Assembly: GCF_030693405.1 (NCBI RefSeq)
Contig: NZ_JAUYAW010000010.1
Coordinates: 124,001-188,000, forward strand
Length of the DNA stretch: 64,000 bases
Reading direction: 5' to 3'
Source: Phenylobacterium sp.
GTDB taxonomy: Bacteria > Pseudomonadota > Alphaproteobacteria > Caulobacterales > Caulobacteraceae
Below are positions 3,093 through 59,665 of this stretch, in pieces. The position numbers and the translations under genes are program-made. Each line of letters opens with the position of its first letter. Within the stretch, counting starts at the first letter, position 1. The notes beneath the pieces are model-generated. The model did no database searches. It was not told where the DNA came from and saw only the letters and a program-made list of their open reading frames with translations.

Positions 3093-3310
3093 GATGATTC
3101 TGCGTAAGATTGGGGTTGCTGCGACCCTATCTGCGGCCCATGTGTCGCGCCACCGTCGGAATGCCCGGCGGCGCCCCGTCTAGTTTGTATCGTCCCTGCA
3201 ATCACCGGGTCGCAGACCTGTGGTCTGGGAACCCTCGCCGCCCGGGGTCAGGGATCTGAAGCTGGGCTATGATGCCTTCTGATTCGCGGCCGAGGCCCAC
3301 CAGGACTGCC

Positions 3311-12588: not shown

Positions 12589-13407
12589 GTGTTCAATGAT
12601 GACCGCAAGCTGATCGACCGAATGGCGCCCGCATTGCAGCGGGTGCTGATCATTGATCCGTCCCCGGCTGGCGGACGCATGCTGGCTGATCTCATGCGTA
12701 GTCTGACCCACTGTCAGGTCTGGGTGGCGCCCTCGGCCGGCAAGGCCATGGAGTTGATCAAGGGGGCAGACCCGCAGATCATCTTCATCGAGCACGCCGA
12801 GCGCGGCGGCGTCGACGGCATCGAATTCACCCGCCGCCTGCGCCGCAGCGAGGCGACCTGCCGCCAGGCGCCGGTGGTCATGATCCTGACCCAGCCCACC
12901 GCAGCCGCGGTTCTCGGCGCGCGGGACGCCGGCGTCCACGAATTCCTGCGCAAGCCCTTCACCACCGCCGACCTGCTCAAGCGGCTTGAGGCGGTGACCC
13001 TGCGGCCCCGGGACTGGGTCGAGGCGGTGACCTATGTCGGTCCCGACCGCCGGCGGTTCAATTCTGGCGACTATCAGGGCGCCCTCAAGCGCCGCTCTGA
13101 CTCCCGGGCGACGCCGGAGCGCAGCCGCATCCTGCAGGCGGTGAAGATCCTCAAGTCCGCCGCCGGAGCCCTGCAGAGCGATCCGGCCCAGGCTCTGCGA
13201 GCCATGAAGGCGCAGGGCGCCGATCTTCAGTCGGTGGCGGTCAAGACCGGCGACATGAAGCTGGCTGCGGCGGCGGCCGACTTCCACCGTTACCTGGCCA
13301 CCGTCGTGGACCCGCGACGACTGGACCCGACCGAGATCGCCTTTCATGTGGCGGCTCTGTCGGCCTTTGCCCCGGCCGAGGACGGCCCGCGCAAGCGCGT
13401 GGCCTGA
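12589..13407 (+). CDS. receiver-domain protein with altered phosphosite
   Basis: A 272-residue protein. Residues 15-135 fit a CheY-like receiver: 'RVLIIDPSPAGGRMLADLM', strand 3 'PQIIFIEHAERGGVDGIEF', T101 in 'VVMILTQ' and K122 in 'EFLRKPF'. At the position of the phospho-accepting aspartate is E68, and the acidic pair of strand 1 is reduced to one residue (D23-P24). It is therefore probably a pseudo-receiver, either not phosphorylated or locked in a phospho-like state. Residues 140-272 are helical and contain no DNA-binding or enzymatic domain I recognise. The start is GTG, downstream of a GGGGAG-like site. No sensor kinase is adjacent. Confidence 0.75.
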   Translation: MFNDDRKLIDRMAPALQRVLIIDPSPAGGRMLADLMRSLTHCQVWVAPSAGKAMELIKGADPQIIFIEHAERGGVDGIEFTRRLRRSEATCRQAPVVMILTQPTAAAVLGARDAGVHEFLRKPFTTADLLKRLEAVTLRPRDWVEAVTYVGPDRRRFNSGDYQGALKRRSDSRATPERSRILQAVKILKSAAGALQSDPAQALRAMKAQGADLQSVAVKTGDMKLAAAAADFHRYLATVVDPRRLDPTEIAFHVAALSAFAPAEDGPRKRVA

Positions 13408-13416
13408 ACCGGCGCT

Positions 13417-13788
13417 CTATTTCAGGGCGTTGAGATAGGTCGAGAGGTCGAAATAGTCGCGCCAGACCTTGATCTGACCCTTCTCCATCTCGAAGACGCC
13501 GCAGCAGGGCAGATCGACGGGCTTGCCGCCGACCATGGTGCGGTCGAGCCGCTCGGCCACCACCCGGTCGCCCTCCGCCATCAGGGTCAGGACCTCCCAG
13601 TCGGTGGAGGTCCAGTCTTTGACAAAGGCGCCGATGAAGCCGGCGATGGCCTCGCGGCCATGGACCGGCCCGGTCGGCATGTTGTGGTAGCAGCCGTCTT
13701 CGCAGAAATAGCTCGCCAGCTCAGCCGGATCGCGGCGGGACCAGGCGGCGATGAAATTGGCGATGATCTCGGCATTGACCTGGGCCAT
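13417..13788 (-). CDS. limonene-1,2-epoxide hydrolase family protein
   Basis: A 123-residue NTF2-like protein. All five catalytic residues of limonene epoxide hydrolase can be placed with matching spacing: Y34 and N36 in 'CYHNMP', R80 and D82 in 'ERLDR', and D111 in 'WRDYFD'. Active epoxide hydrolysis is thus plausible, though the natural substrate is unknown. A longer in-frame start exists at 13833, but the ATG at 13788 follows a strong GGGGGAG site six bases away. That site and the ATG both lie in one arm of a long hairpin (13782-13838; separate entry). The gene is on the same strand as rpoH and 71 bases downstream of it. Confidence 0.8.
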   Translation of the reverse strand: MAQVNAEIIANFIAAWSRRDPAELASYFCEDGCYHNMPTGPVHGREAIAGFIGAFVKDWTSTDWEVLTLMAEGDRVVAERLDRTMVGGKPVDLPCCGVFEMEKGQIKVWRDYFDLSTYLNALK

Positions 13789-13838
13789 GGACGTCTCCCC
13801 CTGCGTTCTCTTGAACTTTGGGGGAGGGTCCATGGCCC
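13782..13838 (-). promoter_or_regulatory. long hairpin masking RBS and start codon
   Basis: An inverted repeat pairs GGGCCATGGAC (13782-13792) with GTCCATGGCCC (13828-13838), and CTCCCCC (13795-13801) with GGGGGAG (13820-13826). That gives 18 base pairs with only a 2-versus-1-base internal loop and an 18-base apical loop. Read as RNA from the minus strand, the 3' arm contains the Shine-Dalgarno GGGGGAG and the ATG of the epoxide-hydrolase-like gene, so the folded form should block ribosome access. The 5' arm holds a second in-frame ATG. There is no U-tract, so a simple terminator is less likely. Function is inferred. Confidence 0.6.
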
Positions 13839-13859
13839 GGCTGTTTTGGGCAAGCCCGA

Positions 13860-14747
13860 TCAGGCGTTGACCAGGTTCCGGTCTTCGGCGGCGGCCTGCA
13901 TGGTCTTCTGAAGCTTCTCGAAGGCGCGGACCTCGATCTGACGGACGCGCTCGCGGCTGACGCCGTACTGGCCGGCCAGTTCCTCGAGCGTCGTCGGATC
14001 GTCCTTCAGCCGCCGCTCGGTCAGAATGTGACGTTCACGGTCGGAAAGCTCGGCCATGGCCTCCTGAAGGAGACCCATGCGCAGACCGCGCTCCTCGTTG
14101 TCGGCGACCACCGTCTCCTGGCTGGGGGCGGCGTCGTCGGCCAGCCAGTCCTGCCACTCGCTCTCGGAGTCCGAACGCAGGGGCGCGTTGAGCGAGGCGT
14201 CCGGGCCCGACAGGCGCCGGTTCATGGAGATGACCTCTTCGTCCAGCACGCCGAGCTTGGTGGCGATCTGACGGACCTGGTCGGGGTGCATGTCGCCTTC
14301 CTCGAAGGCGCTGATCTGGCTCTTGGCCTTGCGGAGGTTGAAGAACAGCTTCTTCTGCGCCGCCGTCGTGCCCATCTTCACCAGGGACCAGGACCGCAAG
14401 ATGTACTCCTGGATCGAGGCGCGGATCCACCACATGGCGTAGGTGGCCAGGCGGAAGCCCCGGTCGGGATCGAACTTCTTGACCGCCTGCATCAGGCCGA
14501 CATTGCCCTCGGAGATCACCTCACCGATGGGCAGGCCATAGCCGCGGTAGCCCATGGCGATCTTGGCCACCAGACGCAGGTGGCTGGTCACCAGCCGATG
14601 GGCGGCCTCGGGGTCTTCGTGCTCCTGCCAGCGCTTGGCGAGCATGAATTCCTCGTCCTTGGCCAGCATCGGAAATTTGCGAATATCGCTGAGATACCGG
14701 CTCAGGCCGCCTTCCGGCGACATGACGGCAAGCGTTTGCGCGGCCAT
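13860..14747 (-). CDS. rpoH: heat-shock sigma factor sigma-32
   Basis: A 295-residue sigma-70-family factor that directs RNA polymerase to heat-shock promoters. Region 2 is clear ('LRLVAKIAMGYRGYGLPIGEVISEGNVGLMQAVKKFDPDRGFRLATYAMWWIRASIQEYIL' region, about residues 56-117). It is followed by the RpoH box-like segment 'LFFNLRKAKSQI' (about 134-145) and region 4 with its helix-turn-helix 'TLEELAGQYGVSRERVRQIEVRAFEKL' near the C terminus. Length suits alphaproteobacterial RpoH and is much shorter than RpoD. The ATG follows AGAGGGGA. About 210 bases of non-coding DNA precede it; I could not identify its promoters with confidence. Confidence 0.95.
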   Translation of the reverse strand: MAAQTLAVMSPEGGLSRYLSDIRKFPMLAKDEEFMLAKRWQEHEDPEAAHRLVTSHLRLVAKIAMGYRGYGLPIGEVISEGNVGLMQAVKKFDPDRGFRLATYAMWWIRASIQEYILRSWSLVKMGTTAAQKKLFFNLRKAKSQISAFEEGDMHPDQVRQIATKLGVLDEEVISMNRRLSGPDASLNAPLRSDSESEWQDWLADDAAPSQETVVADNEERGLRMGLLQEAMAELSDRERHILTERRLKDDPTTLEELAGQYGVSRERVRQIEVRAFEKLQKTMQAAAEDRNLVNA

Positions 14748-14961
14748 GACTATCCCCTCTTGATGTGTGGACTGCCGGGCCGCTGCGCAGGTGTGCGCCA
14801 GGTCCCCCCACCCCTCGACCCTTCAGATAGGTATCGGGTTGTCGGAGCGGAAGGCCGCCGGGGAGGGCGGCTGGAAAGTCCCACTTGTGAACTCAGGTAT
14901 TTGTACCCCGCGATCTGGGCGCAAGCAAGGCGCGGCCCCTCGTTGGGACCCGCCGAAAATC

Positions 14962-59038: not shown

Positions 59039-59665
59039 ATGTCCAACATCCACAAGCCCGATCCGACCGAACTGCCGAGCACCCGGCGACTGCTGCGTTC
59101 CACCGCCATCGCGGCAGCGGTGGCCGCGGGGCTGCTGGTCACCGTGGTCCTGCCCGCTGAATACGCCATCGACCCCACGGGAGTAGGTCGGCTGATCGGC
59201 CTGACTCAGATGGGCGAGGTTAAGGTCGCCTTGGCTGCCGAAGCGAAGGCCGAAGTCGCGGCGCCGTCGGCTGCCCCGCAAGTGGCGGTCGCGGCCGCGC
59301 CGGCGGCCCCGCGGCCGGCTCCAGCTACGGCGGCGCCGGCCGTGGCCGCCGGCAAGGTGGAGGAGGTCGCCATCACCCTAGCGCCCAACCAGGCTGCCGA
59401 ATTCAAGGCGGAGATGCGCAAAGGCACCACCATCGACTTCCGCTGGAGCACCGACGGCCCGAAGCTGAACTTCGACACCCACGGGGACGGGCCGGGCATC
59501 AAGTACCATGGCTACGCCAAGGGTTCGGAGGCCGTCTCCGAAGGCCAGCTGACCGCCGCCTTCGACGGCGCGCACGGCTGGTTCTGGCGCAACCGCGCCG
59601 GCAAGCCGGTGACGCTCACCCTCCGCGTCTCAGGCGACTTCGCGCGGTTGAAGCGGGTGGTCTGA
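59039..59665 (+). CDS. membrane-anchored periplasmic protein
   Basis: A 208-residue protein with one N-terminal transmembrane helix (about 22-42), a long Ala/Pro linker (65-105) and a C-terminal beta-rich domain ('VEEVAITLAPNQAAEFKAEMRKGTTIDFRWSTDGPKLNFDTHGDG' region, then 'FDGAHGWFWRNRAGKPVTLTLRVSGDF'). Databases call similar proteins 'transmembrane anchor protein'; the role is unknown. The linker should let the domain reach across the periplasm. It follows hupE by 12 bases with GGGGAG before the ATG, and appears to be the last gene of the metal operon. Confidence 0.78.
   Translation: MSNIHKPDPTELPSTRRLLRSTAIAAAVAAGLLVTVVLPAEYAIDPTGVGRLIGLTQMGEVKVALAAEAKAEVAAPSAAPQVAVAAAPAAPRPAPATAAPAVAAGKVEEVAITLAPNQAAEFKAEMRKGTTIDFRWSTDGPKLNFDTHGDGPGIKYHGYAKGSEAVSEGQLTAAFDGAHGWFWRNRAGKPVTLTLRVSGDFARLKRVV

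Follow-up and report, generated by a model that had tools for sequence, protein, structure and literature searches.

Structure and strength of the hairpin behind rpoH

The Shine-Dalgarno (SD) sequence and start codon of a small limonene-epoxide hydrolase (LEH)/SnoaL-like gene directly downstream of rpoH are buried in an extremely stable RNA hairpin, which is kept in all four species found with the rpoH-LEH order and covers a gene under purifying selection. The window, i.e., the whole stretch of 64,000 nucleotides of Phenylobacterium DNA analyzed here, carries the hairpin at 13782–13838 on the minus strand. It is composed of an 11-bp outer stem, a 1/2 internal loop, a 7-bp inner stem, and an 18-nt apical loop, in agreement with the sequence, position, and architecture given in the original prediction, and its existence was confirmed by folding. 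The heat-shock sigma factor gene rpoH (13860–14747, minus strand; NCBIfam rpoH_proteo, 372.5 bits with a cut-off of 323.1) lies upstream of LEH on the same strand, and the stem begins 21 nt past its stop codon in all four species, the spacer occupying 13839–13859 in the window. Along the transcript follow the 5' arm of the outer stem (13828–13838, located by folding and alignment), the 5' arm of the inner stem, which forms the anti-SD strand (13820–13826), and the apical loop (13802–13819), inside which the Phenylobacterium hairpin of the window has an extra 4-bp GUUC/GAAC helix. Sequence and folding place the 3' arm of the inner stem (13795–13801) exactly on the SD sequence GGGGGAG, 6 nt upstream of the LEH ATG (13786–13788). 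The 3' arm of the outer stem (13782–13792) contains this ATG and the start of codons 2 and 3. The inner stem hence coincides with the SD and the outer stem with the AUG.

The gene with the buried start (13417–13788, minus strand) encodes 123 amino acids. Its product matched Pfam SnoaL_2 (5.5e-20) and Pfam LEH (2.5e-19; 70.2 bits, cut-off 24), and comparison with the PDB returned limonene-epoxide hydrolases (best 1.9e-17), which bears out the earlier description of the gene as epoxide-hydrolase-like. The ER-x-D and WRDYFD motifs were preserved in alignments to 5jpp and 4r9k; of these we take the R-x-D and D residues to be catalytic. These matches suggest that the protein belongs to the limonene-1,2-epoxide hydrolase/SnoaL fold family. 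The dN/dS ratio of LEH among the four species was 0.12–0.16, indicating purifying selection, so the protein is presumably made. On its 3' side, LEH is followed by a convergently oriented gene whose product has a response-regulator receiver domain (12589–13407, plus strand; Pfam Response_reg, 2.5e-12).

The 57-nt hairpin had a minimum free energy (MFE) of -42.3 kcal/mol (z -8.22), and 0 of 200 shuffled sequences were as low. When 371 nt of rpoH and LEH were folded together, it remained intact in both the MFE and the centroid structure. We then compared it with a sample of 464 kb from the 3.4-Mb genome (the 64-kb window and another 400 kb), where it was the fifth most stable distinct place among 154,276 segments of 57 nt (both strands, step 6). 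Among 415 ORF-derived starts of this sample, the LEH start region had the second-lowest MFE. The LEH start was also the hardest to open of 175 SD-supported starts sampled from this genome, itself included, with a cost of 36.5 kcal/mol (-15 to +12) against a median of 15.4. The starts in these samples were picked mechanically, by longest ORF and best SD, and false genes will be among them. A stricter count of occlusion, with SD region and ATG both more than 0.9 paired, held 2 of the 415 starts; the LEH start fell outside it because its 8-nt SD region included the unpaired internal loop (0.87). SD-bearing starts in alphaproteobacteria are located on average at a peak of unfoldedness (PMC3121790), which makes the LEH start a marked exception.

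Folding z-scores of the hairpin alone were -8.4 in the window, -5.8 in G076, -6.4 in G077, and -5.4 in G094. With the spacer included, they were -6.5, -4.0, -5.4, and -3.0, respectively, and shuffled sequences as low numbered 2 of 1000 for G076 and 5 of 1000 for G094. A search of the window's own genome with a 16-base pattern (up to two mismatches) returned 17 matches including the hairpin site, which does not support a genomic repeat family. Two other folds were observed. The most stable 57-nt fold of the 464-kb sample (-51.3 kcal/mol) is located at 59299–59355 of the window on the plus strand, and a hairpin of strength similar to that at the LEH start (-40.4) is located at about 3187–3243 (plus strand) of locus L115, just upstream of an SD-ATG start. 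The L115 start is mostly open (ATG 0.18 paired) and forms a contrast case to the buried LEH start.

Conservation of pairing and distribution of the gene order

In the four-species alignment, the 17 shared pairs comprise 68 cells, every one of which was standard; an 18th pair exists only in the hairpin of the window and was left out of these counts. A check for compensatory changes in relatives, as the original prediction had suggested, revealed one such change, from C-G to U-A at inner pair 1 in G094. Four pairs had changed on one side only, always to G-U in the sense RNA, and these same changes are mismatches in the antisense RNA or in a DNA inverted repeat. The 5' arm varied in 4 of 17 columns, comprising 1 of 11 in the outer stem and 3 of the 6 shared columns in the inner stem, where the pair was kept each time. 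The corresponding values were 9 of 21 for the spacer and 14 of 18 ungapped columns for the apical loop (Fisher's test: 5' arm versus loop, p 0.002; 5' arm versus spacer plus loop, p 0.02). With the 3' arm fixed in its observed form and only the 5' arm drifting at the spacer rate, the probability that every pair is kept was 4e-5 to 2e-4, in a rough calculation on a star tree rooted at the window. Sliding the partner by 1–3 columns reduced pairing to 39–59%, and the +3 slide likewise yielded one pair changed on both sides. In a shuffle control of covariation, 114 of 500 shuffles reached the observed score, which is not significant, as four sequences hold little information and are too few for a formal test. 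Taken with the folding, these pair-preserving changes support an RNA structure hiding the SD and ATG of the LEH-like gene, as had been proposed.

To delimit the gene order, rpoH was searched in 101 genomes of the genus. All gave a match, although that in G106 and G112 was only a weak one to another sigma-like protein and several genomes gave fragments only. LEH was matched at E <=1e-30 in 39 of the 101 genomes, and coordinate comparison placed it directly 3' of rpoH in 4 of these 39, namely G000 (the window), G076, G077, and G094; where an assembly is fragmented, separate contigs are no strict proof against adjacency. Among the LEH loci that were re-scanned, rpoH was present at these four only. 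At rpoH loci without LEH, the receiver-domain gene was convergent to rpoH in 19 of 26 and was not found at the remaining 7, some of which are on short contigs. The four rpoH-linked LEH starts had opening costs of 28.5–36.6 kcal/mol, versus 1.5–21.4 kcal/mol (median 8.6) for 31 LEH starts at other loci, with the start at L072 left out because of Ns. The hairpin was therefore rejected as a general feature of LEH genes, since the starts at other loci have no such lock.

A covariance model of the hairpin matched 7 of 390 genomes of the family, in a search with stricter filters that could miss weak copies. The matches in the four rpoH-LEH species were strong (E 6.2e-19 to 1.9e-17), and the remaining three, in other genera, were weak (E 1.9e-4 to 8.2e-4). 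In a tree with 10 rows built from the pseudouridine-synthase-rpoH region, the occurrence of LEH needs three changes, of which at least two are forced, and the window is sister to G090, which has neither LEH nor the hairpin. The literature search found no paper joining rpoH with "limonene epoxide hydrolase", and among the matches listed no title concerned this hairpin element; the statement is limited to that search.

A separate motif was observed upstream of LEH genes elsewhere in the genus. The operator- or promoter-like motif CTTGCC-N9-GCAAACRGGTGTTT, with constant spacing, was present upstream of 12 of 32 scanned LEH loci, between about -63 and -85 relative to the aligned LEH start. Its carriers (L002, L003, L005, L081, L087, L088, L089, L090, L091, L092, L093, and L094) are not next to rpoH. 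It was absent from the four rpoH-linked LEH loci, which have the hairpin instead.

Alternative roles for the hairpin

The location behind rpoH and the burial of both SD and AUG would suit an RNA thermometer, as the original prediction had guessed, in which heat shock melts the hairpin and frees the two elements. In ROSE thermometers, a U(U/C)GCU motif pairs imperfectly with the SD and leaves a bulged G (PMC11342760); in fourU thermometers, four uridines pair with the SD, and intercistronic thermometers are known (PMC4166951). The rpoH-LEH hairpin resembles these in its intercistronic position and in pairing with the SD (and AUG) of the following gene, but it differs in the arm opposite the SD, where neither U(U/C)GCU nor a UUUU run was found in the four species. 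This arm reads CUCCCCC in the window and is C/U-rich in the other three. None of the four Rfam matches with E up to 1 was to a thermometer family, ROSE included, and LEH is not a heat-shock chaperone gene. Moreover, the GC-rich stem is not predicted to melt in the physiological range: from 20 to 70 °C, predicted pairing of the AUG exceeded 99% in all four species, and SD pairing did not fall below 99% in the window and G094, 97% in G077, or 88% in G076, these being predictions run with no known thermometer as a positive control. We thus give hardly any credence to a thermometer; on these predictions the hairpin looks too strong for a temperature switch, and an opener of another sort would be needed. 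The terminating ribosome was considered as such an opener. In classical translational coupling, ribosomes ending rpoH would open the hairpin and restart on LEH, in keeping with the short intergenic region and the shared strand. The footprint of a terminating ribosome, however, falls short of 21 nt beyond the stop. The stem thus starts out of its reach in all four species, which makes simple coupling unlikely, and a change in loop length alters the frame relation of rpoH and LEH; we consider this route improbable. A start at a second ATG (13833) in the 5' arm was rejected. This ATG, previously noted as in frame, is so in the window, 45 nt from the LEH start, but at 43 nt in each of the other three it is out of frame, and the codon is GTG in two of the four species (G076 and G094).

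The pattern of change in the arms also bears on a DNA-level inverted repeat, either a protein-binding palindrome or a bidirectional terminator. Each arm contains CCATGG, and the terminator scan indicated a weak terminator-like site on the plus strand at 13826–13838. Yet all four one-sided changes retain pairing in the sense RNA only, which disfavors the bidirectional palindrome entertained earlier, and the antisense tail is T-rich by eye in just two of four species, for which reason an antisense terminator was rejected; a DNA-level role as a whole seems decidedly improbable. A sense intrinsic terminator was likewise rejected, as the sense tail reads AGGUCAAUGCCG in the window and is free of U-runs in the other three, and the terminator scan of the minus strand at 13400–14800 found none. 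The hairpin could still serve rpoH as an mRNA 3' boundary that blocks 3'-5' exonucleases and replaces the terminator of relatives, its overlap with the LEH start being a by-product. Relatives too have hairpins after rpoH, so selection could be for rpoH. By eye, the LEH-less G001, G018, and G084 have GC-rich hairpins with T-runs there and G005 and G090 have GC-rich hairpins without T-runs, and the terminators of relatives resemble the rpoH-LEH hairpin in being strong, GC-rich, and located no more than about 45 nt past the rpoH stop. The freely varying loop would also be expected of a mere barrier. On the other hand, the terminator-like hairpins of G001, G018, and G084 come with T-runs, and no gene start lies in their stems, whereas the rpoH-LEH hairpin is followed by no U-run and its stems match the SD and AUG, which a stabilizer does not need. 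Because the 3' arm is itself the LEH start, co-occurrence with LEH is trivial for that half of the hairpin; the 5' arm, however, could have persisted in G005 and G090 and did not, and both carry a different hairpin of their own. We regard a role for rpoH instead of LEH, the main rival to a translational lock, as a real but doubtful possibility, and the hairpin may double as the rpoH 3' end in a second role. G005 and G090 (L039 and L040), the closest LEH-less relatives, share a homologous alternative spacer, in which their own GC-rich hairpin lies.

A candidate translational lock and its meaning

The reading that we favor, with chances that we judge to be about even, is that the hairpin constitutively locks translation of LEH on mRNA reading through from rpoH, the lock being opened actively or bypassed. 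The hairpin would lie within a transcript running from rpoH into LEH and would be maintained by selection for pairing. With the SD held in the inner stem and the AUG in the outer stem, ribosomes would be unable to initiate LEH at physiological temperatures as long as the transcript is intact. As LEH is maintained as a gene, the lock would have to be opened by an active step or bypassed. Opening might involve an endonuclease cut and removal of the 5' arm by an exonuclease or helicase; a transcript starting after the 5' arm would be the bypass. We infer that LEH is read from rpoH transcripts and that its translation is blocked in cells, and the manner of relief is likewise a proposal.

It speaks against the lock that a maintained gene should be closed so tightly while no opener is apparent, and no hairpin would form on an LEH transcript whose start lies downstream of the 5' arm. 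A scan for sigma-70-like promoters on the minus strand at 13400–14800 found none. As to a hidden promoter in the rpoH 3' end, third positions of the last 15 codons varied in 1 of 15 among the four LEH species versus 3 of 15 among four species without LEH. The apical loop is not conserved, which argues against a sequence-specific ligand binding there.

The pnp leader of E. coli forms a stable double strand near a start and is processed by RNase III and PNPase. Regulation of pnp by these two enzymes is described in PMC7509114 and PMC3997798. Both the pnp leader and the rpoH-LEH hairpin place a stable double strand upstream of or over a start, and translation could change once the strand is cut and its 5' arm removed. 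The two differ in that LEH is not a nuclease and in that the rpoH-LEH stem covers the SD and AUG directly. A more specific proposal, in which the rpoH-LEH transcript stays silent for LEH until the stem or loop is cut and the 5' arm removed, while the hairpin becomes the protected 3' end of rpoH mRNA, is on balance unlikely. If it were true, one element would separate the heat-shock regulator from the enzyme gene, with RNA decay timing enzyme synthesis.

The hairpin is stable and conserved as RNA and pairs both the SD and the start codon, so by structure it belongs to a known kind, the RBS-sequestering hairpins; its strength and its position behind rpoH make it notable. Few start-site hairpins in the sampled part of the genome are as strong, and the gene that it covers is maintained by selection. 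If the hairpin is instead the 3' end of rpoH, a gene start would serve as one arm of its neighbor's 3' end. If the lock is real, the locus would offer a clean test of how a message is translated when its start is buried beyond the reach of heat or of a finishing ribosome, and one clade of Caulobacteraceae would have the mRNA of its heat-shock sigma factor tied to a small enzyme.
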